Assembly: GCF_006715305.1 (NCBI RefSeq)
Contig: NZ_VFMY01000001.1
Coordinates: forward strand, 3,472,001 to 3,536,000
DNA: 64,000 nt
Source: Arthrobacter sp. SLBN-100
GTDB lineage: Bacteria > Actinomycetota > Actinomycetes > Actinomycetales > Micrococcaceae
Reading direction: 5' to 3'
The translations under genes and the position numbers were made by a program. The number at the start of each line of letters is the position of its first letter. Position 1 is the first letter of the stretch. Of the stretch, positions 30,698-42,776 are shown piece after piece. The notes beneath the pieces were generated by a model, which did not search any database, had not been told where the DNA came from, and saw only the letters and a list, made by a program, of their open reading frames with translations.

Positions 30698-30755
30698 TTC
30701 CTACTGCTAAGTCTTGCCGCAGGCTTCGGAACCAGACCCGAGGGAACCAACGACA

Positions 30756-31688
30756 ATGCCCGAATCTTTCGCCGCGCTTGCCGTGGACATTACTCCAGTC
30801 CAAGAGCCATGCCTGGAACCTCCGAGGGAAATCCGCCGCGCCAGCAAACAAGGGCGGCTCCGCGAGACCTTCGAAAATGACCTGGTCCTGGCCTACCTGG
30901 ACCTCGCCGAAGCCCTCGCTGCCCGTTTTGAGGCCCGGGGCCGGGAACGTGCGGACCTGAACCAGGTGGCCTACCTTGGACTGGTCAAGGCCGCCCGCGG
31001 CTTCGACCAGACCAAGGGGGAAAGTTTTCCCGCCTACGCCGCCCCAACCATCGCCGGGGAGTTGAAGAGATACCTGCGTGACCGCACGTGGGTGGTCCGG
31101 CCGCCCCGGCACATCCAGGACCTCCGCACGAGGATGTTCCGGGTGGAACCGGAGCTGGTGCAGGCGCTGGGCAGGAATCCCAGTGTGGACGAACTGGCCA
31201 CGGAGCTGGGGACCGACGCCGCCGAAGTCCAGGAGGCCATCTCGGCGTCGAGCAGCATGCACCCCGACTCCCTGGACGCAGCCAACCCGCACAGCGACGC
31301 CCCCTCGATCGGCGATTTGCTCGCCTGCCCGGAAACACCCCTGGAGCGGCTCGAGGACCTGGCATGCCTGCGTGATGCCATGCAGGACCTGGATCCCGCG
31401 GACCGGGAACTGCTGTACCGCCGCTATTTCTGTGAGGAAACCCAGGTCCAGTTAGGGAAGCGGCTGGGAATGTCGCAGATGCAGGTTTCGCGTCGGCTGG
31501 CCCGGGTGCTCGTGGAACTCCAGCGGCGCCTCCTAAGCAACGGGCAGGTAGACAGCGTCCGGGCGGAACCGGACCGGGCAGCGGGCTCTTTCCCGTCCGC
31601 GCGAAGCACCGCCGGCGAGGCAGTTTCAAGCACAGCTTCCAGCAAAGCTGCGTCCCGCCGCGCCAGTTCCAGGGCCGGAAACAGATAG
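30756..31688 (+). CDS. Alternative sigma factor, SigB/SigF/SigG subfamily
   Basis: This sigma-70 family protein probably directs a general-stress regulon. Region 2 reads DLNQVAYLGLVKAARGFDQTKG and FPAYAAPTIAGELKRYLRDRTWVVRPPRHIQDLR (about 66-122), region 3 follows, and region 4 is DLDPADRELLYRRYFCEETQVQLGKRLGMSQMQVSRRLARVLVELQ (about 210-257). The chosen ATG at 30756 has GAGGGA 10 nt upstream. A Ser/Ala/Arg-rich tail of about 45 residues extends beyond region 4. No anti-sigma or anti-anti-sigma gene is adjacent, which is unusual for this subfamily. Confidence 0.93.
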   Translation: MPESFAALAVDITPVQEPCLEPPREIRRASKQGRLRETFENDLVLAYLDLAEALAARFEARGRERADLNQVAYLGLVKAARGFDQTKGESFPAYAAPTIAGELKRYLRDRTWVVRPPRHIQDLRTRMFRVEPELVQALGRNPSVDELATELGTDAAEVQEAISASSSMHPDSLDAANPHSDAPSIGDLLACPETPLERLEDLACLRDAMQDLDPADRELLYRRYFCEETQVQLGKRLGMSQMQVSRRLARVLVELQRRLLSNGQVDSVRAEPDRAAGSFPSARSTAGEAVSSTASSKAASRRASSRAGNR

Positions 31689-31823
31689 CCCGCCAGGCGT
31701 GCCAGCGGCAGCGCCGGCACCGGCCGGAAGCCCGGCGCAGTCCTATCTTGCCTGTTCAAACCCCCCTCCTGTGACCAGTCGAAAGGTGAGAAAAGCAGCA
31801 GCACTTGTTTAGGAGCAGCAGCA

Positions 31824-32378
31824 GTGGGGAACGGAGGGGGTATGGAAAGCTCCGTAACCTCCAAGTTCCGCGCTGTCCTGTTCGACCGGGACGGGACGCT
31901 GGTGATCGATGTGCCCTACAACGGGGACCCCGGACGGGTCACCCCAATGCCGGGGGCCAAGGCAGTCCTGGATGCACTTCGGGCAGACGGGATAGCCACC
32001 GGAGTCATCAGCAACCAGTCCGGAATCGCGCGGGGCCTGATCACCGCCGCGGACGTGGCAGGCGTCAACGCCCGGGTGGAGGAATTGCTGGGGCCCTTTG
32101 ACGTGTGGGAGGTATGCCCGCATTCGGAGCAGGACAATTGCTCCTGCCGCAAGCCCGCGCCGGGAATGGTACACAGCGCCTGCCGCAGGCTCGGCATCCA
32201 GGAATCGGAGGCAGCGCTCATCGGCGATATCGGCGCTGATGTCCGCGCCGCCGAAGCCGCCGGAGCAACTGGCGTCCTCGTTCCGACTCCGGTAACCCGG
32301 GCCGAAGAGGTGGCCGCGGCCCAGCTGGTGGCCCGGGACCTGGCCGAAGCCGTCTCGCTGCTGGTGGAGCAGCCCTGA
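31824..32378 (+). CDS. gmhB: D-glycero-D-manno-heptose 1,7-bisphosphate phosphatase-like (GmhB)
   Basis: This HAD-IIIA phosphatase would remove the C7 phosphate of heptose 1,7-bisphosphate. It has the HAD motif AVLFDRDGTLV, the motif II VISNQSGIARG, and the zinc loop CPHSEQDNCSCRKPAPG that is diagnostic of GmhB-type enzymes. Two starts are possible: GTG 31824 (AGGAG 8 nt upstream, 184 residues) or ATG 31842 (GGAGG only 4 nt upstream). Its stop overlaps the next start as TGATG. It opens the heptose gene string. Confidence 0.85.
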   Translation: MGNGGGMESSVTSKFRAVLFDRDGTLVIDVPYNGDPGRVTPMPGAKAVLDALRADGIATGVISNQSGIARGLITAADVAGVNARVEELLGPFDVWEVCPHSEQDNCSCRKPAPGMVHSACRRLGIQESEAALIGDIGADVRAAEAAGATGVLVPTPVTRAEEVAAAQLVARDLAEAVSLLVEQP

Positions 32379-33466
32379 TGGGCCGCGTCCTGGTGGCACG
32401 CCTGGACAGCATGGGCGATGTCCTCCTGGCCGGGCCGGCAGTACGGGCCGTCGCCAATGGCCGGTTCCCCGACGGCAGCCGGCCGAACCAGGTGGTGATG
32501 CTCTGCGGACGGCAGGGTGAAGCGGCGGCAGGAATGTTGCCCGGCGCCGCAGAGGTCTACAGCTGGGACAGCCCCTGGATCATGAACCCTGCCCCCCGGA
32601 TGACAGGCCCGCACGCCGACAGGCTCATCGAGTACGTCCGGAACTCCAGGATCACCGAGGCGGTCATCCTCACCTCCTTCCACCAGTCGCCCCTGCCGCT
32701 GGCCCTGCTGCTCCGCCTGGCCGGTGTGGAAAGGATCACCGGGGCATCCACCGATTACGCCGGTTCCCTGCTGGATGTCCGGCTCAAGCCCGGTGAAGAC
32801 TTTCCGGAAGACCAGCCCGAAGCCGAACGCGCCCTGGGCATCGCCGAGGCGGGCGGGTTCCGGCTCCCGGCCGGGGACGACGGCAAACTCCGCGTCACGT
32901 CCGTGCCCGACGTCAGGGACCTCGTGGGCGATGACCCTTACGTGGTGGTGCATCCGGGAGCCGCAGTCCCTGCCAGGGCATGGCCGCCGCTGCACCATGC
33001 TGCCGCCGTCGAACTCCTGCAGGGGGCCGGGCGCCGGGTTGTGGTCACAGGCGGCCCCGGCGAGACCTCGCTCACTGCCACCGTCGCCGGACCGTCGGCC
33101 ATCGACCTCGGCGGCCGCACGGACCTCCATACCCTCGCCGGGGTGATGGCGGGGGCGGACGCCGTCGTCACCGGCAACACCGGCCCCGCGCACCTCGCCG
33201 CAGCCGTAGGCACCCCGGTGGCCTGCCTTTTTTCGCCCGTGGTGCCAGCCATCCGCTGGGCGCCGTACGGCGTCTCACTGGAGCTGCTGGGCGACCAGAA
33301 CGCCGCCTGCCGAATGTCCCGGGCGCGGGACTGTCCCGTTCCCGGCCACCCCTGCCTTGACTCCGTCGCACCCGAGGAAGTGGTGGCGGCCGTGGAACGC
33401 CTGATCGGCGGAGTGAGCTCTTTCAGCACCCACGTCAGCACCCGTAGAAAGGCCCGTAACAGATGA
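32378..33466 (+). CDS. Glycosyltransferase family 9 (heptosyltransferase-like)
   Basis: A 362-residue GT9 enzyme, the family of LPS heptosyltransferases WaaC/WaaF/WaaQ. It starts VLVARLDSMGDVLLAGPAVRA, has VVVHPGAAVPARAWP at the domain border, the acceptor-side LGGRTDLHTLAGVMAGADAVVTGNTGPAHLAAAVGTPV and a final CRMSRARDCPVPGHPCLDSV. These are all GT9 hallmarks. In an LPS-less actinobacterium its donor is probably an NDP-heptose made by the neighbouring genes. The acceptor is unknown. It overlaps both neighbours by 1-4 nt. Confidence 0.88.
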   Translation: MGRVLVARLDSMGDVLLAGPAVRAVANGRFPDGSRPNQVVMLCGRQGEAAAGMLPGAAEVYSWDSPWIMNPAPRMTGPHADRLIEYVRNSRITEAVILTSFHQSPLPLALLLRLAGVERITGASTDYAGSLLDVRLKPGEDFPEDQPEAERALGIAEAGGFRLPAGDDGKLRVTSVPDVRDLVGDDPYVVVHPGAAVPARAWPPLHHAAAVELLQGAGRRVVVTGGPGETSLTATVAGPSAIDLGGRTDLHTLAGVMAGADAVVTGNTGPAHLAAAVGTPVACLFSPVVPAIRWAPYGVSLELLGDQNAACRMSRARDCPVPGHPCLDSVAPEEVVAAVERLIGGVSSFSTHVSTRRKARNR

Positions 33467-34497
33467 GAATCCTGCTCTGGCATGTCCACGGTTCCTGGAC
33501 GGACGCTTTTGTCCGCGGCCGTCATGAGTACCTCCTTCCGGTCCTGCCGGGAGGTGGTGCCTGGGGACTGGGCCGTGCCGGCAGGGACTGGCCGGCGTCA
33601 GTGCGCGAGGTGGACCTGGCGGCACTGGACGCCGACGCCGTTGACGCCGTCGTTCTTCAACGTCCTGAGGAAATCGACGAAGTTGCCCGGCTGCTGGGCC
33701 GGAGGCCGGGTGTTAACCTGCCCGCGGTTTACGTGGAGCACAACACCCCCAAGGGCGACTTTCCGTTAACCCGGCACCCGCTCGCAGACCAGCGGGCCAT
33801 CCCCCTGGTGCACGTCACCCACTTCAACAGGCTGGCGTGGGATAACGGATCCGCCCGCAGCCTGGTGATCGAACACGGGATTCCGGACCCGGGCCAGCTC
33901 TACACGGGAGAGTTGCCGGAGCTGGGCGTGGTGGTGAATGAACCCATCCGCCGCGGACGCGTCACCGGCACGGACCTGTTGCCGGCTTTCGCTTCGGTTG
34001 CCCCGCTCCAGGTCTTCGGCATGAAGACCGACGGCCTCGCGGCCGCCGCGGGAATTGAAGAGTCGCGGCTGACGGCCCGGGGTGACCTCAAGACAAGGGA
34101 ACTGCACCGGGAACTGGCCCGCTGCCGCGTCTATGTACACCCGATGCGGTGGACGTCCCTGGGGTTGTCCCTGCTGGAAGCCATGCACCTGGGAATGCCG
34201 GTGGTTGCCCTGGCCACCACCGAAGCGCCGCGGGCGGTGCCGCCGGAGGCCGGCGCCGTGTCCGCCGATATCGATGAGCTGCTACGCTGCGCTCAGCGGC
34301 TGGTCGCCAATCCGGATGAAGCCCGACGGTGCGGCGTTGCCGCCCGGGAGGCGGCACTGGAACGCTACAGCCTGGGCAGGTTCCAGGACCGCTGGGATGA
34401 GCTCCTCGCGGACCTTGGCGGCCGGCTCCGGCACTCCGACAACGGACGCCTGGAAGAGAAGATCCTTGTTCCGGCGCGAGAGAGGAAGACGCCATGA
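33463..34497 (+). CDS. Glycosyltransferase (GT-B, group 1-like)
   Basis: A 344-residue protein with a GT-B-type C-terminal half: [38 protein letters not shown], matching the EX7E-like nucleotide-sugar site of group 1 glycosyltransferases. The N-terminal half ([39 protein letters not shown]) is conserved in actinobacterial heptose/glycan loci. Donor and acceptor are unknown. ATGA overlaps couple it to the genes on both sides. Confidence 0.82.
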
Positions 34498-35747
34498 AGA
34501 TCTCCATGATTTCCGAGCACGCCAGTCCGCTGGCGGCGTTGGGCGGAGTGGATGCCGGCGGGCAGAACGTGCACGTTGCCGCGCTGTCCGAAGCACTTGC
34601 CAAGCGGGGCCACCAGGTGACTGTTTACACGCGCCGGGATGCAACGGAGCTTCCGGAGAGGGTCCGTGTGGGCCGCCGGTTCGAGGTGGTGCACGTGGAC
34701 GCGGGACCCGCCCGGCACGTCCCCAAGGACGAGCTGCTGCCCTACATGGGCGAGCTTGCCGACGGTGTGGCAAGGGACTGGAGCCGGCGGGCGCCTGATG
34801 TGGTGCACGGGCATTTCTGGATGTCCGGCGTTGCGGCCCTGGACGCTGCCCGGCGGCCGGAGCAGGGCTACCGCGTTCCCGTCATCCAGACCTTCCACGC
34901 CCTGGGCACGGTCAAGCGGCGGCACCAGGGCTCGGAGGACACCAGTCCGGCCGAACGCCGCTGGCTGGAGCCCGGGGTTGGACGTTCCGTGGACCGGATC
35001 GTTGCCACCTGCTCCGACGAAGTTTTCGAACTCAAAGCCATGGGCATCAACACGGGCAAGATTTCCATTGCACCCTGCGGCGTGGACCTCGGCTTCTTTT
35101 CGGCTGACGGTCCGGCGGCCGCCAGGCAGCGCAAACACCGCATCCTCTCTGTGGGCCGCCTGGTGCCGCGCAAGGGAGTGGACCTGGTGATCCGGGCGCT
35201 GCCCTACCTCCAGGATGCCGGCTTCGACGACGTCGAACTCCTCATTGTGGGCGGCGGCGCAGAGTCGGGTGTGCTCCACGCCGATCCGGAGGTCCGGCGC
35301 CTGCTGGAGCTTGCCGGGGAACTGGGAGTTTCGGACCAGGTGAACCTGCAGGGCCAGGTGTCACGCGGCGAAATGCCCGGCATCTTCCGCAGCGCCGATG
35401 CCGTAGTGTGCGCGCCCTGGTACGAGCCCTTCGGCATCGTCCCGCTCGAGGCCATGGCCTGCGGCGTCCCGGTGGTTGCCGCCGCCGTCGGCGGCCTGCG
35501 GGATACGGTGGTGGACCACGGAACCGGGCTGCACGTGCCGCCCCGGGACCCCGAGGCCATTGCGTCCGCGCTGGCCCTGCTGCTGGAGAACCCCGCGCTG
35601 CGGACGGAACTTGGCAATGCGGGCAAGCGGCGTGCACGGACCAGGTACTCCTGGGACCGGGTGGCGGCCGAAACCGAGAAGGCGTACCAGCTGGCGGTGG
35701 CCGGGGCTGCCGCGGGCGTCGTCCCGATGGAAGGAGCGGCATTGTGA
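34494..35747 (+). CDS. Glycosyltransferase family 4
   Basis: A 417-residue GT4 retaining glycosyltransferase. The N-terminal domain starts [42 protein letters not shown], as in MshA and sucrose-phosphate-synthase-like enzymes. The C-terminal site is [21 protein letters not shown] then [39 protein letters not shown] with the EX7E motif. It probably adds one sugar to the glycan of this locus. It is coupled at both ends by ATGA/GTGA overlaps. Confidence 0.9.
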
Positions 35748-36487
35748 CTGCGGAATGGTCCCTTCGTGAAGCCGATGTACCGGTCCTGGCACGGCCGGCA
35801 CCCCTGCCCGCGGTGCTGCCCGGCGCCACTTTTGTGGATCCGGACAGCGAGGAGGCGGTGCGCACGCACCTGGACAATGTGCTGCCGGCCCTCGATTCGC
35901 TGCGGAGCCAGTCCGGCCGGCTCGCGGCCTGGGGTGTGGAGCTGGCCCAGCGCCTGCTCCGCGGCCAGCGGCTCCTTGCCGCCGGAAACGGCGGTTCAGC
36001 TGCGGAGGCCCAGCACCTCACTGCGGAACTGGTGGGCAGGTTCGACGGCGAACGGGTTCCGTTCTCGGCCATCTCGCTGCACGCGGAGTCCTCGGCGGTG
36101 ACGGCCATCGCCAATGATTACGGCTACGACGACGTCTTCGCCCGCCAGGTGCGCGCCCACGGCCGCTCAGGCGACGTACTGATGCTGCTGTCCACCAGCG
36201 GCAAGAGCCCCAACCTGCTGCGGGCTGCCGGAGCAGCATCACGCCTGAACATCACCACCTGGGCGCTCACGGGAACCGGTCCCAATCCCCTGGCTGACGC
36301 CTGCGACGAGGCGGTCATGATTGAGGCCCTCAACGCGAATGCCCAGGAGGGGCATCTCATCGCGCTGCACGCCGTCTGCCGCGCCTTCGACCTGGAAGTG
36401 GGCCGGCGCGGCGCCGCTGAGGCGCCGGCCTTGACAAACCTCGGCGGCCAAAACCCGGGCCTGCAGAAGCGGGGTGGCGTGGCATGA
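35744..36487 (+). CDS. gmhA: SIS-domain phosphoheptose isomerase-like (GmhA)
   Basis: GmhA converts sedoheptulose 7-phosphate to D-glycero-D-manno-heptose 7-phosphate. The 247-residue protein has the family signature [24 protein letters not shown] (Glu in ELVGRF), then [29 protein letters not shown], and [16 protein letters not shown] with the catalytic histidine. The start is GTG at 35744, overlapping the preceding TGA. An N-terminal extension of about 35 residues is longer than in E. coli GmhA (192 residues in total). Confidence 0.88.
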
Positions 36488-37860
36488 GGATCGTAGTGGT
36501 GGGCGATGTGATGCTGGACGTGGACCTGTCCGGGGAAGCCACACGGCTGAGCCCTGACGCGCCAGTGCCCGTGGTGGACGTGTCCGGCGTCAAGCGCCGT
36601 GCCGGGGGAGCCGGCCTTGTAGCCCGGATGCTTGCCGGGGACAACTGGCCTGTCACGCTGGTGACCGTCCTGGGCGATGACGACGCCGGCCGGCAGCTTG
36701 AAACACACCTCGCCGGAGTGCGGCTCGTCTCAGGTCCCAGTGGTTACCCCTCGCCGGTCAAGACCCGGGTCAGGGCAGGATCGCATCCCGTGGTCCGTTT
36801 TGATCAGGGCTGCGAAAAGACGCCTGTTCCGGAGGTCAGCCCGGCCATGCTCCGGGCGGTGGAGAAAGCCGGCGTGATCATTGTGGCCGATTACGGCCGC
36901 GGCCTGGCGGCCAATCCGCAATTGCGGGAGCTCCTGGCGCGGCTGGCGGATGAGGTGCCCATTGTGTGGGACCCGCACCCTGCCGGGCCGGATCCGGTGC
37001 CGGGAGTCGCCGTCGTCACGCCTAACCTGGCTGAGGCGCAGAAGGCGGTGCAGTCGCGCGGCCGGAAGGAAGCCCGGCCCACCCCCGATTCGGCCGCCGA
37101 GGTGGGCGGGATCCTGCTCGAGGAATGGGGCAGCCGGGCTGTCCTGGTCACCAAGGGCGAACAGGGAGCCGTCCTGTGCCGGCCGGGCCGCAGTGCGGAA
37201 CACGTTCCCGCGCCGAGGGTGGAAGCCGGTGATCCCTGTGGTGCCGGAGACAGGCTTGCTGCCAGCCTTGCAGTGCACCTCCTCGCCGGCCGGGGGCTGG
37301 ACGAAGCCGCCGTGCTGGCTGTCCACGACGCCGCGGACTTCCTGGCCAACGGCGGGGTGTCTGCCCTCCCCGACGCCGAGGAGCCCGCGCCGGTCCAGCC
37401 CCGCATCAGCGATCCCCTGCTGCTGGCCCGCGCCGTGCGCGAAAGCGGCGGCAAGGTGGTGGCCACCGGCGGGTGCTTCGACCTGCTGCATGCCGGGCAC
37501 GTCCGGTCCCTGGCGGCTGCCCGCGAACTGGGGGATTGCCTGATCGTTTGCCTGAACTCGGACGATTCCGTGCGGCGGTTGAAAGGCCCGGAACGGCCCA
37601 TCATCGGCCAGCATGACCGCGCCGAGCTGCTGCTCGCCATGGAGTGCGTGGACGCTGTGATGGTTTTCGACGAAGACACTCCCGAGGCTGCCCTGGAACG
37701 CCTTCGCCCGGACATCTGGGTCAAAGGCGGCGACTACAAGGGCGCCAGCCTGCCGGAAGCTGCCTTGGTGGAGAGGTGGGGCGGACGCTGCGTTACCGTC
37801 CCCTACCACCCTGCACGTTCCACCACCGGCCTGGCCGACGCGCTCGCCAAGGTGAGCTGA
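36484..37860 (+). CDS. Bifunctional heptose kinase/nucleotidylyltransferase, diverged HldE-like (copy 1)
   Basis: A 458-residue fusion of a PfkB/RfaE kinase domain (about 1-300) and a cytidylyltransferase-fold domain (about 320-458). The kinase domain starts VVVGDVMLDVDLSGEATRLSP and has a GAGD motif in DPCGAGDRLAAS. Its substrate loop reads RAGGAGLVARMLAG where HldE enzymes have PGGAANVAMN, so the kinase half is diverged. The transferase half is intact: GGCFDLLHAGHVRSL, LNSDDSVRRLKGPERPI, DIWVKGGDY. Nucleotide (ADP, GDP or CDP) unknown. ATGA overlap with gmhA. Confidence 0.85.
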   Translation: MRIVVVGDVMLDVDLSGEATRLSPDAPVPVVDVSGVKRRAGGAGLVARMLAGDNWPVTLVTVLGDDDAGRQLETHLAGVRLVSGPSGYPSPVKTRVRAGSHPVVRFDQGCEKTPVPEVSPAMLRAVEKAGVIIVADYGRGLAANPQLRELLARLADEVPIVWDPHPAGPDPVPGVAVVTPNLAEAQKAVQSRGRKEARPTPDSAAEVGGILLEEWGSRAVLVTKGEQGAVLCRPGRSAEHVPAPRVEAGDPCGAGDRLAASLAVHLLAGRGLDEAAVLAVHDAADFLANGGVSALPDAEEPAPVQPRISDPLLLARAVRESGGKVVATGGCFDLLHAGHVRSLAAARELGDCLIVCLNSDDSVRRLKGPERPIIGQHDRAELLLAMECVDAVMVFDEDTPEAALERLRPDIWVKGGDYKGASLPEAALVERWGGRCVTVPYHPARSTTGLADALAKVS

Positions 37861-37889
37861 CGGCCCAGCTGAGCCGACCGCCACCGTGA

Positions 37890-37922
37890 GCCCACCGGCC
37901 CGACGTGGGCCGATCAGCCCAC
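37890..37922 (+). promoter_or_regulatory. Mutually exclusive hairpins in the heptose gene string
   Basis: GTGGGC (37905-37910) can pair with GCCCAC on its left (37890-37895) or with an identical GCCCAC on its right (37917-37922). The right-hand hairpin precedes AAAGAAGTTTTGTTTT. This is an attenuator-like layout in the only sizeable gap (97 bp) of the string. Confidence 0.35.
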
Positions 37923-37957
37923 AAAGAAGTTTTGTTTTCCCGATCGAAAGGAACACC

Positions 37958-38659
37958 ATGACTGCAGATTCGAAATCGCCTGGACGCGTGCTCGTCACCG
38001 GAGGTGCCTCCGGACTGGGGGCCGCCGTCGTCGAAGCCGTCCTGAAGGCAGGCGGCACCCCGGTGGTGCTGGACCGGGACATCAGCAACGTGTCCGCGGT
38101 GAAAGCCTTCGAAGTGGACGTCGCGGACCGGCTGGCCGTGGAGGCTGCAGTGAAGGAAGCCGCGGAATCACTCGGCGGGCTCGAGGCTGTGGTGACGGCG
38201 GCAGGCATCGACCGTTGCGGCAAGCTGGCCGACGTCGAGGCCACCGAATGGGAAAAGGTCATCGGGGTCAACCTGATGGGCACCGTCTCTGTGGTGCGGG
38301 CTGCCCTGCCCTACCTCAAGTCCTCCCACGGCCGGGTGGTGACTGTCGCCTCGACGCTGGGCAAGCGTGCCGTGGCCGACGCCACCGCCTACTGCGCGTC
38401 CAAGTTCGGCGTGGTGGGCTTCAGCCACGCGCTGGCTGCGGAAACCGGCGGGGAAATCGGGGTGACCACCATGATCCCGGGCGGCATGAAGACGCGCTTC
38501 TTCGATGACCGCACCGAGCAGTACAAACCGCAGGATGATTCGCGGCTCAACGACCCCAGCAACGTGGCCGAGGCGATTCTTTTTGCGCTGTCCCAGCCCA
38601 CCGGGTGCGAAGTCCGCGAAATGCTGATCTGCCATGAGGAAGAGGGCTCCTGGCCCTAA
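37958..38659 (+). CDS. Short-chain dehydrogenase/reductase
   Basis: A 233-residue classical SDR. Nucleotide motif VTGGASGLGAAVVEA (residues 13-27), TAAGID in place of the usual NNAG, Ser in VTVASTLG and the catalytic YCASK. It is too short to be the extended SDR HldD (ADP-heptose 6-epimerase), so it is not a simple replacement. AAAGGAAC precedes the ATG. Its place in the heptose string suggests it works on the sugar or on a linked alcohol/aldehyde with the next gene. Confidence 0.88.
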   Translation: MTADSKSPGRVLVTGGASGLGAAVVEAVLKAGGTPVVLDRDISNVSAVKAFEVDVADRLAVEAAVKEAAESLGGLEAVVTAAGIDRCGKLADVEATEWEKVIGVNLMGTVSVVRAALPYLKSSHGRVVTVASTLGKRAVADATAYCASKFGVVGFSHALAAETGGEIGVTTMIPGGMKTRFFDDRTEQYKPQDDSRLNDPSNVAEAILFALSQPTGCEVREMLICHEEEGSWP

Positions 38660-38697
38660 GCACAACCACCCATGCCGGAACCGACGGGAGGAACATC

Positions 38698-40209
38698 ATG
38701 CCCAGCATTGCCACGGATACCACTGCACAAGATTCCACTGCACAGGATTCCACTGCAGAAGCGGAAATAACTGACACCAACGGCATCACCATCCGGAACC
38801 CACGGACCGGTGACGTCCTGTGGACCGTACCGGAGGCCGAACCGGACGCGGTGTCGCATGCCGTAGAGGTGGCGCGCCGTGCTGCTGCGGAGTGGGCCTC
38901 CACTGCGCCGGCAGAGCGGGGCGCCGCCCTCCGGAAGGCTGCGAAGGCACTCGAGGCAGCCGCGCAGGAACTTGCCGAGCTGAACTTCAGCGAAACGGGC
39001 CGGCCGGTTGAAGAGTCCGTCGCCGGCATCGGCGCGGGGGTTTCCACCCTGGAGCAGTACGCGGAGCTCGGTCCTGTCCACCGCGGGCACAGCCTGCGGG
39101 GCAACCGGCTCGCCGCCGATTACACCGTGGCCGAGCCCCGCGGTGTCGCGGTCCTCCTGACACCCTGGAATGATCCTGTAGCGGTGGCCTGCGGCCTGAT
39201 CGGTGCCGCACTGGCCACCGGCAACACCGTGGTGCACAAGCCGAGCGAGCGCTGCCCGCGGCTTGGTGAGGCATTGGGGGAGGTGCTCGCACCCGCTTTT
39301 CCGCCTGGCGTTTTCCAGACGGTGTCCGGCGGCGCCGGCGCAGGTGCGCTCCTGGCCCAGTCCGAGGTTGATGTGATCGCGCATGTCGGTTCGAGTGCTT
39401 CCGGTGCGCGGATCGCGAGGGCAGGGGCGCTCACGGGAGCCCACGTCATCCGGGAGAACGGCGGCAACGACCCGCTGCTGGTGGACGGCGACGTTGACCC
39501 CGGGTGGGCAGCCGGGCAGGCCGCGATCGGTGCCTTCAGCAACAGCGGCCAGATCTGCGTGGCAGTGGAGCGGATCTACGTCCATGAGGCCATTGCCGCG
39601 GAATTCTGCACGGCCCTGGAAGCCGAAGCAGCACTTCGTAACAACAGCGGGACCGTCGCGCCGCTGGTGGATCTCCGGATGCGGGACGAGGTCCATTCCC
39701 AGGTGGCTGACGCGCTGCGGCAGGGGGCGCGGGTGGTGGAGGGCGGCGCCCTTCCGGACGGCCCGGGCTCCTTCTACCCGGCCACCGTCCTCCTCGGCTG
39801 CACCGACGAAATGCAGATCATGACCGAGGAAACCTTCGGGCCCGTCGCACCGGTGCAGGTGGTGAAATCGTTCGACGACGGGCTGCGGCTCGCCTGCAGC
39901 GGCAGGTACGGCCTGGCCGCCACAGTCCTGAGCGGCAACATCGCCCACATCCAGCAGGCGGTGGCCGCACTCCCGGTGGGCACCGTCAAGATCAACGAAG
40001 TGTTCGGCGGCGCCCCGGGCGGCGCGGCCCAGCCGCGCGGCGAAAGTGGCGCCGGCTTCGGCTATGGCCCGGAGCTCCTGGACGAGTTCAGCCGCGTGAA
40101 AGTGGTGCACATCGCGGCGCCGCCCGCAGTTTTCGATAGCGCAGCTGCGGATGGCCAGGAGTCCGCAGCTGCCGGGGAAGCCGTGGCTGCGGAGCGGGAC
40201 GAGCCATGA
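38698..40209 (+). CDS. Aldehyde dehydrogenase
   Basis: A 503-residue NAD(P)-dependent ALDH. The catalytic Cys287 lies in FSNSGQICVAVERIYV. The general base Glu253 lies in RENGGNDPLLV, where most members have ELGG. The cofactor region TPWNDPVAVACGLIGAALATGNTVVHKPSE is present. The first residues contain a threefold TAQDST-like repeat from a 15-bp tandem duplication (38716-38759). It is coupled by an ATGA overlap to the next HldE-like gene. The substrate aldehyde is unknown. Confidence 0.9.
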   Translation: MPSIATDTTAQDSTAQDSTAEAEITDTNGITIRNPRTGDVLWTVPEAEPDAVSHAVEVARRAAAEWASTAPAERGAALRKAAKALEAAAQELAELNFSETGRPVEESVAGIGAGVSTLEQYAELGPVHRGHSLRGNRLAADYTVAEPRGVAVLLTPWNDPVAVACGLIGAALATGNTVVHKPSERCPRLGEALGEVLAPAFPPGVFQTVSGGAGAGALLAQSEVDVIAHVGSSASGARIARAGALTGAHVIRENGGNDPLLVDGDVDPGWAAGQAAIGAFSNSGQICVAVERIYVHEAIAAEFCTALEAEAALRNNSGTVAPLVDLRMRDEVHSQVADALRQGARVVEGGALPDGPGSFYPATVLLGCTDEMQIMTEETFGPVAPVQVVKSFDDGLRLACSGRYGLAATVLSGNIAHIQQAVAALPVGTVKINEVFGGAPGGAAQPRGESGAGFGYGPELLDEFSRVKVVHIAAPPAVFDSAAADGQESAAAGEAVAAERDEP

Positions 40210-41819
40210 GCCTCTCGCCCGACAACCTGCCGGTGGACCCTGCAGACGTCCCCGCCCACCCCGAGAACCTGCCGCTGGACCCCGCCCTGGTGGACCCCGC
40301 CCTGGCGGACCTGGGCAGCCAGCGCGCATTGTCGGAGTGGCTCCCCGGCCGGCTGGCAGCAGAAGAACCGGGCATCCTGGTGATCGGCGACCTCATGCTT
40401 GATGGCTGGTGGAGCGGCAGCATCGAACGGCTGTGCCGGGAAGCCCCGGCGCCGGTGGTGGATATCCACGTCCGTGAATCAGTTCCCGGCGGGGCAGCCA
40501 ACACGGCCATGAACCTGGCTGCCCTCGGGGCCCGGGTCTCGGTGGCCGGCATCATCGGAACCGATGACGCCGGCGAGGACCTGCGCAGCCAGCTCGTAGC
40601 GGCAGGCATCGACGTGGCCTACCTGCACAGCCACCCGGACATGGTGACCACCACCAAAATCCGGATCAGCAGCGGCGGGCAGGTGATGCTCCGCCTCGAC
40701 GACTCCGCCACGACGGTGCCGGCCGAGGCGCTGGCCGCACTCGCCGCTTCGGTGCGCGCCGCCGTCGAACGCCAGGACGCGGTGCTGGTGTGCGACTACG
40801 GCAACGGGGTACTCGCCGATCCCGTCCGCAAGGGTTTGATCGAAGCGCTGGGGAAGGCCCCCGTTCCCGGCGGGGACCGTCCGCTGCTGGTGGTCGACTC
40901 CCATGACCCCCGTCCCTGGGCGCCGCTCCGCCCGGACCTGGTAACGCCCAACGCGCAGGAAACCGCGCGGATGCTGGACCTCCGGCTGCCGGACGGCCAG
41001 GAGAGGGTCGACGCGGTCAGCCAGCACGCGGAGGAGTTGCTGGAAGCTACGGGTGCGGGTGCCGTGGTGGTCACCTTGGACCGCGACGGCACGGTGCTGT
41101 TAAGGCCCGACGGCGTGACGCACCGTACCTGGGCCCGCCCGGCAGCCGAGAAGCAGGCTTCCGGGGCCGGCGACACGTTCGTGGCGGCGCTGACGCTGGC
41201 GCGCTCGGCCGGGCTGCCGCTGACGGCGAGCCTGGACCTTGCCCAGTCGGCCGCGGACGTGGTGGTGCACCAGCCGGGCACCTCAGTCTGCAGTACCGGC
41301 CAGCTCAGCCGGTACCTTAAGGCCTTCGCTGACACCGCACTTGGCGCCGATGAACTGGAACGGCAGCTGGAGCTGCACCGGTCCGAGGGCCAGCGAATTG
41401 TCCTCACCAACGGCTGCTTCGACGTGCTGCACAGCGGCCATACCCGCTACCTCAACCAGGCCAAGCAGTTGGGTGACGTCCTGGTGGTGGCGCTGAACAG
41501 TGACGATTCCGTGCGGAAACTCAAGGGTGCCGGCCGGCCGATTAACTCGATGGCGGACCGTGCTGCCGTGGTGGCGGCCCTGAGCTGCGTGGACTACGTG
41601 ACGGTGTTTGACACCCCCACGGCGGCGCCCTTGATCCGGCAGCTCCGGCCCGAGGTCTATGCCAAGGGCGGGGACTACACCCCGGAGATGCTGGCCGAAA
41701 CGCCTGCGGTGGAGGAATACGGCGGCCGCGTGGCCATCCTGGACTACGTGGCCGAGCGGTCCACCACCGCAGTGGTGAAGCGGATCCGCGAGGGCGAAGG
41801 AGCCGTGCCCGGTAACTAA
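40206..41819 (+). CDS. hldE: Bifunctional heptose kinase/nucleotidylyltransferase, canonical HldE-like (copy 2)
   Basis: A 537-residue fusion of RfaE kinase (about 50-370) and nucleotidylyltransferase (about 395-530). The kinase has ILVIGDLMLDGWWSG, the canonical PGGAANTAMNLAALGA and KQASGAGDTFVAALTL. The transferase has TNGCFDVLHSGHTRYL, LNSDDSVRKLKGAGRPIN and EVYAKGGDYTPE. It would make heptose 1,7-bisphosphate and, after GmhB, NDP-heptose. The N-terminal 50 residues are an extension with NLPVDPADV/NLPLDPALV repeats. It closes the string; the stop lies in a 16-bp tandem duplication. Confidence 0.9.
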   Translation: MSLSPDNLPVDPADVPAHPENLPLDPALVDPALADLGSQRALSEWLPGRLAAEEPGILVIGDLMLDGWWSGSIERLCREAPAPVVDIHVRESVPGGAANTAMNLAALGARVSVAGIIGTDDAGEDLRSQLVAAGIDVAYLHSHPDMVTTTKIRISSGGQVMLRLDDSATTVPAEALAALAASVRAAVERQDAVLVCDYGNGVLADPVRKGLIEALGKAPVPGGDRPLLVVDSHDPRPWAPLRPDLVTPNAQETARMLDLRLPDGQERVDAVSQHAEELLEATGAGAVVVTLDRDGTVLLRPDGVTHRTWARPAAEKQASGAGDTFVAALTLARSAGLPLTASLDLAQSAADVVVHQPGTSVCSTGQLSRYLKAFADTALGADELERQLELHRSEGQRIVLTNGCFDVLHSGHTRYLNQAKQLGDVLVVALNSDDSVRKLKGAGRPINSMADRAAVVAALSCVDYVTVFDTPTAAPLIRQLRPEVYAKGGDYTPEMLAETPAVEEYGGRVAILDYVAERSTTAVVKRIREGEGAVPGN

Positions 41820-41844: not shown

Positions 41845-41868
41845 ATGAGTGAAGCGTGGCACGGGTAA
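41845..41868 (+). CDS. Seven-codon leader ORF (MSEAWHG)
   Basis: An ATG stands 6 nt after TAAGGT, the leaderless pattern seen at about ten genes here. It opens MSEAWHG and then meets TAA, which overlaps the ATG of the spermidine-synthase-like gene (TAATG). The arrangement suggests termination-reinitiation. A sequencing error that split one gene is the main alternative. Confidence 0.4.
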   Translation: MSEAWHG

Positions 41869-42776
41869 TGGCAAAAGGCGGAAGGTCAGGCGGCCGGAAC
41901 AGCAGCCGCTCGGTTGCCGGCGTGGTGGATTTGCCCGCGGGTTCCCGCCAGAGCGGACCCGTTGAAGGCGTGTACTACATCGACACCGGGGACTGCGAAC
42001 TGATCGCCGACCAGGACAATTCCACCGGCTGGCTCCTGAAGATCAACGGCGTGATGAGCTCGCACATCGACCTGGCGGACCCGCTGTTCCTGGACTTCGA
42101 GTACATGCGGTGGATGTCCGCACTCATCGAGTCGCGCTGGCCGCCGTCGGGCATATCGGGGACCAGGCCCAAACTCCGTGGCCTGCACCTGGGCGGCGGT
42201 GCCTGCTCACTGGCCCGCTACTTCCACGCCGTCTACCCCGAGGCCCGGCAGGTGGTGGTGGAGCTGGACGGCAAGCTCGCGGAGTATGTGCGCGGCTGGT
42301 TCGACCTGCCCAAGGCGCCGCTGCTGCGCCTGCGGGTGGGGGAGGCCCGCGGGGTCACCGAAACGCTGACCCCGGAAACCCGCGACTTCATCATCCGGGA
42401 CGTTTTCGCCGGTGCCTTCACCCCGCGCGCGCTGACCACTGCGGAGTTCAACCAGCACGTCAAGCACGTCCTGGCACCCGGCGGACTCTACGTGGTGAAC
42501 TCCGGCGACGCCCCGGACCTCAAGAACGCCCGCGAGGACGCTGCCACCATCGCCGCTGCCTTCAAGCACACCGTGATCATCGCTGACCCCGCCATGCTCA
42601 AGGGCCGCCGCTACGGGAACATGGTGATGGCCGGCAGCGATACCCCTTTTGGTGACGACCCGAAGCTGCACCGCCGGCTGCTGGGCGGCGCCGTTCCGGC
42701 CCACCTCTGGGACGACGCCCAGGTCCGGGCGTTCGCCGCCGGCTCGCCGGTCCGCCACGACCCGCCGGCGGAGTAG
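41868..42776 (+). CDS. Spermidine-synthase-like methyltransferase-fold protein
   Basis: A 302-residue protein of the spermidine-synthase-like superfamily. The SAM-type nucleotide loop is RGLHLGGGACSLARYFHAVYP (about 104-124), followed by the acidic VVVELDGKLAEYV and IIRDVFAGAFTPRALTTAEF. The active-site aspartate pair of true aminopropyltransferases is not clearly present, so polyamine synthesis is doubtful. The start is ATG at 41868, overlapping the leader ORF; GTG at 41856 is an in-frame alternative. Confidence 0.8.
   Translation: MAKGGRSGGRNSSRSVAGVVDLPAGSRQSGPVEGVYYIDTGDCELIADQDNSTGWLLKINGVMSSHIDLADPLFLDFEYMRWMSALIESRWPPSGISGTRPKLRGLHLGGGACSLARYFHAVYPEARQVVVELDGKLAEYVRGWFDLPKAPLLRLRVGEARGVTETLTPETRDFIIRDVFAGAFTPRALTTAEFNQHVKHVLAPGGLYVVNSGDAPDLKNAREDAATIAAAFKHTVIIADPAMLKGRRYGNMVMAGSDTPFGDDPKLHRRLLGGAVPAHLWDDAQVRAFAAGSPVRHDPPAE

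Follow-up and report, generated by a model that had tools for sequence, protein, structure and literature searches.

Introduction

The closest described relative of the locus reported here is the cwg ("cell wall glycan") operon of Streptomyces coelicolor. It comprises 12 genes (SCO6179-SCO6190), is transcribed from a sigmaE-dependent promoter and is induced by vancomycin (PMC6767563, PMC5839063). In the parts of the 2018 and 2019 papers available to us, its product is still called predicted or tentative (PMC5839063, PMC6767563). We analyzed a 64,000-nucleotide (nt) stretch of Arthrobacter sp. SLBN-100, hereafter the window, which is bases 3,472,001-3,536,000 of a 4.62-Mb contig (NZ_VFMY01000001.1) in a genome of 4.94 Mb (GCF_006715305.1). 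A string of nine genes on its forward strand (31842-41819) shares six collinear genes with cwg. Judged from gene order, the window locus is a cwg relative and not the full operon. Our favored reading, which we hold to be moderately probable, is that it represents a Micrococcaceae-type variant of the actinobacterial cwg operon, which would make nucleoside diphosphate (NDP)-heptose for a short heptose glycan of the envelope under SigB/F-like control.

Activated heptose is known from other systems. The inner-core heptose pathway of Gram-negative lipopolysaccharide (LPS; GmhA, HldE, GmhB, HldD and WaaC/F/Q) has in common with the window GT9 transferases and the enzyme families that lead to NDP-heptose. 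It differs in that here no HldD scores over the cut-off, no LPS acceptor genes were seen in the string and one HldE, HldE1, has diverged. LPS in an actinobacterium was set aside, as cwg explains the gene set better. NDP-heptose enzymes occur across kingdoms, according to the part available to us of a commentary (PMC11461863) on Tang et al. 2024; that part names no such operon, no sigma linkage and no split between two kinds of HldE. A review, also available in part, reports ADP-heptose in S. fimbriatus and S. hygroscopicus, where it feeds septacidin and hygromycin B. In Rhodococcus ruber, gmhD has been linked with the capsule, and the gene is named a guanosyltransferase (GDP route) in the portion of the source at hand. 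These systems likewise have activated heptose in Gram-positive bacteria, but with other gene sets. The initial annotation of this DNA expressed surprise at heptose genes in an actinobacterium; in view of cwg, the two Streptomyces species and the cross-kingdom enzymes, that surprise was overstated. None of the titles and abstracts listed by our searches treats this operon in Arthrobacter, and the string "heptos" is absent from an Actinoplanes exopolysaccharide paper.

Gene order compared with cwg

An exact copy of the published cwg promoter is present in one of 392 Streptomyces genomes, and five more have it with one or two mismatches; five of these six places were retrieved for gene comparison. 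At four of them (L212, L213, L215 and L216) the promoter is followed by 12 genes in the order UXS-CMT-GT2a-HAD-GT9-GTa-GTb-GmhA-HldE1-GT9b-GT2b-GT2b (CMT, carbamoyltransferase; GT, glycosyltransferase), although the gene caller recovered HldE1 only partly in L213. The window order HAD-GT9-GTa-GTb-GmhA-HldE is that of genes 4-9 behind this promoter. The published gene table, as far as it was available to us, covers SCO6180-6183 and SCO6185-6188 and lists SCO6186 as an isomerase and SCO6187 as a bifunctional synthase (PMC6767563/PMC5839063). These are positions eight and nine, as in the fetched loci, and the listed "transferases" also fit. The HAD gene would correspond to SCO6182 ("putative dehydratase"), presumably under a HisB-type annotation.

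Besides this common order, the Arthrobacter genome holds a GT9b homologue elsewhere, and both operons seem to be linked with a stress sigma factor. In contrast to cwg, the Arthrobacter string carries SDR (short-chain dehydrogenase/reductase), ALDH (aldehyde dehydrogenase) and a second HldE, HldE2, with a distant GT9c, and its promoter is SigB/F-like whereas that of Streptomyces is of the sigmaE type. PF16861, the carbamoyltransferase family of the cwgB position, has no match in the whole genome. No UXS, GT2a or GT2b (two in cwg) was labelled in the 30 kb that surround the cluster; a genome-wide search with these queries was not made.

Genes of the string

The first gene encodes a HAD-IIIA phosphatase resembling GmhB (31842-32378, cwgD by position), as judged from family profiles and a zinc motif. 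ATG 31842 is more likely its start than GTG 31824, because a promoter-like element at 31807-31831 covers the GTG. It is followed by a GT9 glycosyltransferase (32378-33466, cwgE by position; PF01075, 77.8 bits), by GTa (33463-34497, cwgF by position), which is the signature gene of the family, and by GTb (34494-35747, cwgG by position), a GT4 enzyme nearest to MshA models that scores 249.8 bits with TIGR03449, below the cut-off of 462.5. Next come a GmhA-like sedoheptulose 7-phosphate isomerase with a SIS domain (35744-36487, cwgH by position; family profiles and alignment) and HldE1, a divergent bifunctional kinase/nucleotidyltransferase (36484-37860, cwgI by position; profiles, motifs, tree and residue comparison). 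The string continues with a classical SDR (37958-38659; PF00106, 139.4 bits), whose start is more likely ATG 37958, an ALDH (38698-40209; PF00171, 347.8 bits) and HldE2 (40206-41819; profiles, tree and residue comparison). HAD and GT9 overlap by 1 nt, and GT9/GTa, GTa/GTb, GTb/GmhA, GmhA/HldE1 and ALDH/HldE2 by 4 nt each, whereas the HldE1/SDR and SDR/ALDH junctions have no overlap.

The isomerase, kinase, phosphatase and nucleotidyltransferase of the NDP-heptose route are all encoded, with their catalytic motifs. In alignment, the HAD protein has a C-x-H...C-x-C zinc motif, which we take to be of the GmhB type. Against a domain cut-off of 181.5 bits, the nucleotidyltransferase domain of HldE2 scores 191.5 and that of HldE1 181.4, just under. 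The zinc ligands of GmhA are retained, as judged by eye in an alignment against the residues named in the available part of PMC5387315. The model of GTa (pLDDT 87.7) is a GT4-like GT-B enzyme, in agreement with its alignment; Foldseek gave a mannosyltransferase, BshA and PimB' among the best matches, with 10-21% identity in the 50 matches listed. Judging from the model, the fold alone cannot tell donor or acceptor.

No protein of the whole genome matches the HldD model TIGR02197 above its cut-off (best score 135.6 versus 274.6 bits). A hidden HldD was rejected, as the best-scoring protein fits LegB-, GalE- and RmlB-type models better. By hydropathy only, none of the proteins of the string appears to be a multi-span membrane protein. 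A spermidine-synthase-like gene (41856-42776) lies after HldE2. It is labelled in 23 of the 141 loci described below; as a pathway member it was set aside for this low count and probably lies outside the pathway.

The initial annotation had read the region as a nine-gene heptose string, its first six genes overlapping by 1-4 nt, lacking HldD, flippase and polymerase and serving a surface glycan, glycolipid or glycoconjugate in a cell that should have no LPS. All nine genes are present in the families that it gave, no HldD exceeds the cut-off genome-wide, and neither a flippase nor a polymerase was found in the string. The zinc ligands of GmhA and the GmhB-type motif support its assignment of NDP-heptose-type enzymes with GT9 to a non-LPS glycan. 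Its interpretation is supported in part; the neighbouring sigma gene, the promoter, the distant GT9 pair and the difference between the two kinds of HldE escaped it. Its suggestion of a heptosyl acid formed by SDR and ALDH is unsupported; these genes recur near the core (in 111 and 67 of 141 loci), which does not reveal their substrate.

Distribution of the operon

Matches to HldE1 or GTa drew 161 loci. We removed 11 that lacked GTa and 9 whose GTa ends were identical, 20 in all, and kept 141. Genes were called with a home-made script and labelled by BLAST, and a gene labelled SDR or ALDH may be another member of its family. The fetched stretches stop at about 20 kb or at the contig end, so that counts of absence are upper bounds.

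The order GT9-GTa-GTb-GmhA-HldE1 is collinear on one strand in 111 of the 141 non-redundant GTa-bearing actinobacterial loci. The initial annotation had proposed looking for conserved order across Micrococcaceae, and the order recurs phylum-wide; on these comparisons the gene string exceeds chance. Single-open-reading-frame fusions were found for GT2a-HAD (44 loci), GTb-GmhA (16), GmhA-HldE1 (11) and HAD-GT9 (6); they link the enzymes to a single process. At E <= 1e-40, HldE1 had matches in 90 of the 295 family genomes; at E <= 1e-20, GTa had them in 40 of the 396 phylum genomes. The 80 best named GTa contigs include members of Streptomyces, Amycolatopsis, Micromonospora, Clavibacter, Microbacterium and Brevibacterium.

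Two plasmids carry related genes. A 1-Mb Arthrobacter plasmid (L205, NZ_AP024649.1) has relatives of HldE1 (57.5%) and HldE2 (65.8%) about 3 kb apart. On plasmid pFRL3 of Streptomyces sp. FR1 (L204), genes for a GT9, a carbamoyltransferase and a 656-aa protein annotated as rfaE2 adjoin radical SAM, P450 and serine hydroxymethyltransferase genes; from its gene content, this region is perhaps a heptose natural-product cluster.

Two architectures

Among the 141 loci, 51 carry the carbamoyltransferase, 67 carry HldE2, none carries both and 23 carry neither. ALDH was labelled in 47 of the 67 HldE2 loci, 15 of the 51 carbamoyltransferase loci and 5 of the 23 loci with neither; the corresponding counts for SDR are 66, 30 and 15. 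Both architectures are found within the family of the window (L087-L089 versus the remainder) and within Pseudonocardiaceae (Amycolatopsis versus Goodfellowiella and Actinokineospora).

Two kinds of HldE

In a tree with one canonical outgroup and long branches for L190_E2, L058_E2 and E. coli, the 31 HldE1 rows group as a single, long-branched clade (support 100/100), apart from HldE2 and E. coli HldE. HldE2 is not one clade, but 15 of its 16 rows group. We then compared residues in 30 HldE1, 12 HldE2 and 9 canonical HldE (E. coli and eight plasmid-borne genes), at positions picked because they differ; four of the 16 HldE2 of the tree were left out, including the Brevibacterium type with a degenerate second domain. 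In E. coli numbering, N55 is replaced by L and N346 by G in 30/30 HldE1 (HldE1 positions 45 and 329), whereas both are invariant in the 9 canonical HldE and 12 HldE2. We take N55 to be part of the PfkB sugar-binding motif. At two more positions HldE1 is fixed for a change, from F/M344 to A and from K179 to H. HldE2 has some departures from the canonical enzyme in common with HldE1 (H or R at 179, E at 442); on these residues it is nearer to canonical HldE, though not identical.

The GAGD motif is present in 146 of 150 HldE1 and 73 of 76 HldE2. Among sequences in which the STT motif could be read, its fifth position holds arginine in 124 of 131 HldE1 and 27 of 62 HldE2; both window proteins have this arginine. 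None of these counts is de-duplicated. The available part of the commentary links arginine at this position to the use of CTP/UTP besides ATP and to synthesis of CDP-/UDP-heptose (PMC11461863). In a Brevibacterium-type locus, HldE2 (L058:12657-14126) has lost the canonical nucleotidyltransferase motifs.

GT9 genes within and beyond the window

In the 295 family genomes, HldE1 occurs in 90, GT9 domains in 91 and both in 89. G251 has HldE1 only, and G381 and G389 have GT9 only. These genome lists were copied by hand, and the counts, like the Fisher p computed from them, ignore relatedness. Exactly three GT9 matches are present in 69 of the 89 genomes with both.

The Arthrobacter genome also has three GT9 genes. 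One lies in the window, the other two side by side at about 617.6-619.4 kb of the same contig (L191:9066-10939). Compared with relatives that carry these genes in or beside the cluster, the distant pair shows 60% identity to GT9c and 43% to GT9b. In contig coordinates, the distant GT9b homologue lies about 2.9 Mb from the cluster. A similarly separated pair, judged by position only, was seen in G509, G555, G450, G525, G024 and G541. With one GT9, GTa and GTb in the window and two distant GT9, the genome therefore holds at least five glycosyltransferases of the set. No motif of the cluster type was found near the distant pair within the fetched 20 kb.

Promoter footprint and adjacent sigma factor

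Alignment of 14 close upstream regions showed two conserved blocks. One is the footprint GTTTAG-N14-GGGAA (31807-31831, forward strand), which resembles SigB/SigF promoters in form. It ends 10 nt before ATG 31842, and the transcript would therefore be nearly leaderless. Its conservation could partly reflect a ribosome-binding site. The second block (31742-31758, CCTATCTTGCCTGTTCA) lies in the same intergenic region, is kept in most of the 14 relatives and has diverged in L103. Upstream of the footprint, 30714-31688 (forward strand) encodes a sigma factor of the SigB/SigF/SigG family (TIGR02980, 213.6 bits; Pfam sigma-70 regions 2, 3 and 4), which is the likely regulator.

Of 75 distinct loci that lack carbamoyltransferase, 61 have a looser form, GTTT-N14-17-GGGWA, in front of HAD, where 0.010 would be expected per 260 nt. 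It is absent in 38 carbamoyltransferase loci, a weak control as HAD is internal there. This count took in 113 of 166 loci, leaving out duplicates and loci in which the searched HAD string did not occur. The strict pattern precedes HAD in 40/69 and HAD-GT9 in 6/6 called genes, but 0/125 HldE1, 0/142 GTa and 0/51 sigma genes. Elsewhere it precedes 2/54 CMT, 2/59 GT2b, 2/48 GT9c, 1/126 GTb, 1/110 SDR, 1/41 UXS and 13/1276 unlabelled genes. Of the 141 loci, 50 have a gene labelled as sigma factor close to the cluster. The motif also occurs where no sigma gene was labelled, namely in three Clavibacter loci, two Micromonospora loci and the HAD-GT9 locus L176.

Discussion

The string suggests the following route. 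GmhA would isomerize sedoheptulose 7-phosphate. HldE1, HldE2 or both would phosphorylate C1 with their kinase domain, the HAD enzyme would remove the 7-phosphate and the HldE nucleotidyltransferase domains would make NDP-heptose. The three GT9 enzymes, one local and two distant, with the GT4-like GTa and GTb, would then build a short glycan in the cytoplasm, which would reach the envelope via export machinery encoded elsewhere. A heptose-containing glycan is the likely product. The SigB/F-like promoter at 31807-31831, probably read by the adjacent sigma factor, would control the operon.

Several observations weigh against this reading. The whole-protein scores of HldE1, HldE2, GmhA, the GmhB-like HAD protein and GT9 are all under the NCBIfam equivalog cut-offs, and the TIGR02980 score of the sigma factor is below its cut-off of 234.35 bits. 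With N55 and N346 lost, HldE1 may act on a different substrate. The string itself revealed no gene for an exporter, a polymerase or an acceptor. At the fifth retrieved cwg-promoter place (L214), where the promoter is one mismatch off, only GT2a and GTb remain nearby, in what appears to be an operon remnant; with most genes lost, the product is, by gene content, dispensable there. The published sigmaE promoter is unrecognizable in 15 other loci compared (the window not among them), and control therefore differs between lineages. Genome-wide, the promoter pattern gave 20 matches versus 18 for a reversed control, and a regulon drawn from it was set aside.

The lack of a flippase, a polymerase and a multi-span protein would also suit an operon that yields a small soluble or excreted heptose glycoside, like an antibiotic or protectant, instead of an envelope glycan. 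MshA glycosylates a small molecule, and GTb is nearest to MshA. The Streptomyces plasmid pairs GT9, carbamoyltransferase and the rfaE2-annotated gene with radical SAM, P450 and serine hydroxymethyltransferase genes, and septacidin and hygromycin B draw on ADP-heptose according to the part of the review available. The operon is, however, widely conserved, and its relative belongs to the envelope-stress regulon of Streptomyces (PMC6767563, seen in part); we consider a soluble product unlikely.

We are more doubtful still that HldE1 and its partners make a related non-heptose NDP-sugar, with NDP-heptose made only by HldE2 where present. The fixed changes in both domains of the HldE1 clade would fit this, as would the mannose-type substrates that E. 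coli HldE accepts in vitro (PMC10948575, in the part available). Yet GmhA is fused to HldE1 in 11 of 141 loci, the GmhA, HAD and GT9 partners are conserved, and loci of the carbamoyltransferase type have HldE1 and no HldE2. That the string is a drifting, horizontally moved island with no function left here is very improbable. Its presence is patchy (90 of 295 family genomes), part of the set is relocated and the Arthrobacter plasmid carries both HldE types at 57.5% and 65.8% identity, but all frames are open and conserved, three GT9 genes are kept in 69 of 89 genomes and the promoter is conserved across genera.

The operon is conserved, already named in Streptomyces and little studied. Within the literature searched, three things are apparently new, namely the variant architecture, the class formed by HldE1 and the link to a SigB/F-type sigma factor. 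A broader proposal is possible, but we offer it only tentatively. Actinobacteria would make a stress-controlled envelope glycan on differently made NDP-heptoses. HldE1 would be a new class with both pockets changed and an undescribed product, and HldE2 would provide a second activated heptose. Lineages would have carbamoylation or the HldE2 branch, never both, and control would have been rewired between sigmaE in Streptomyces and a sigma factor of the SigB/F type whose gene often adjoins the operon.

The comparison turns the cwg product into testable chemistry, NDP-heptose, and finds the operon in many actinobacterial families. It separates two architectures that are mutually exclusive in the loci seen and distinguishes two kinds of HldE. 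The promoter and the sigma factor are a candidate means of switching the operon on. The locus also points to where heptose may be sought in Gram-positive envelopes, and ALPK1-active sugars outside Gram-negative bacteria.

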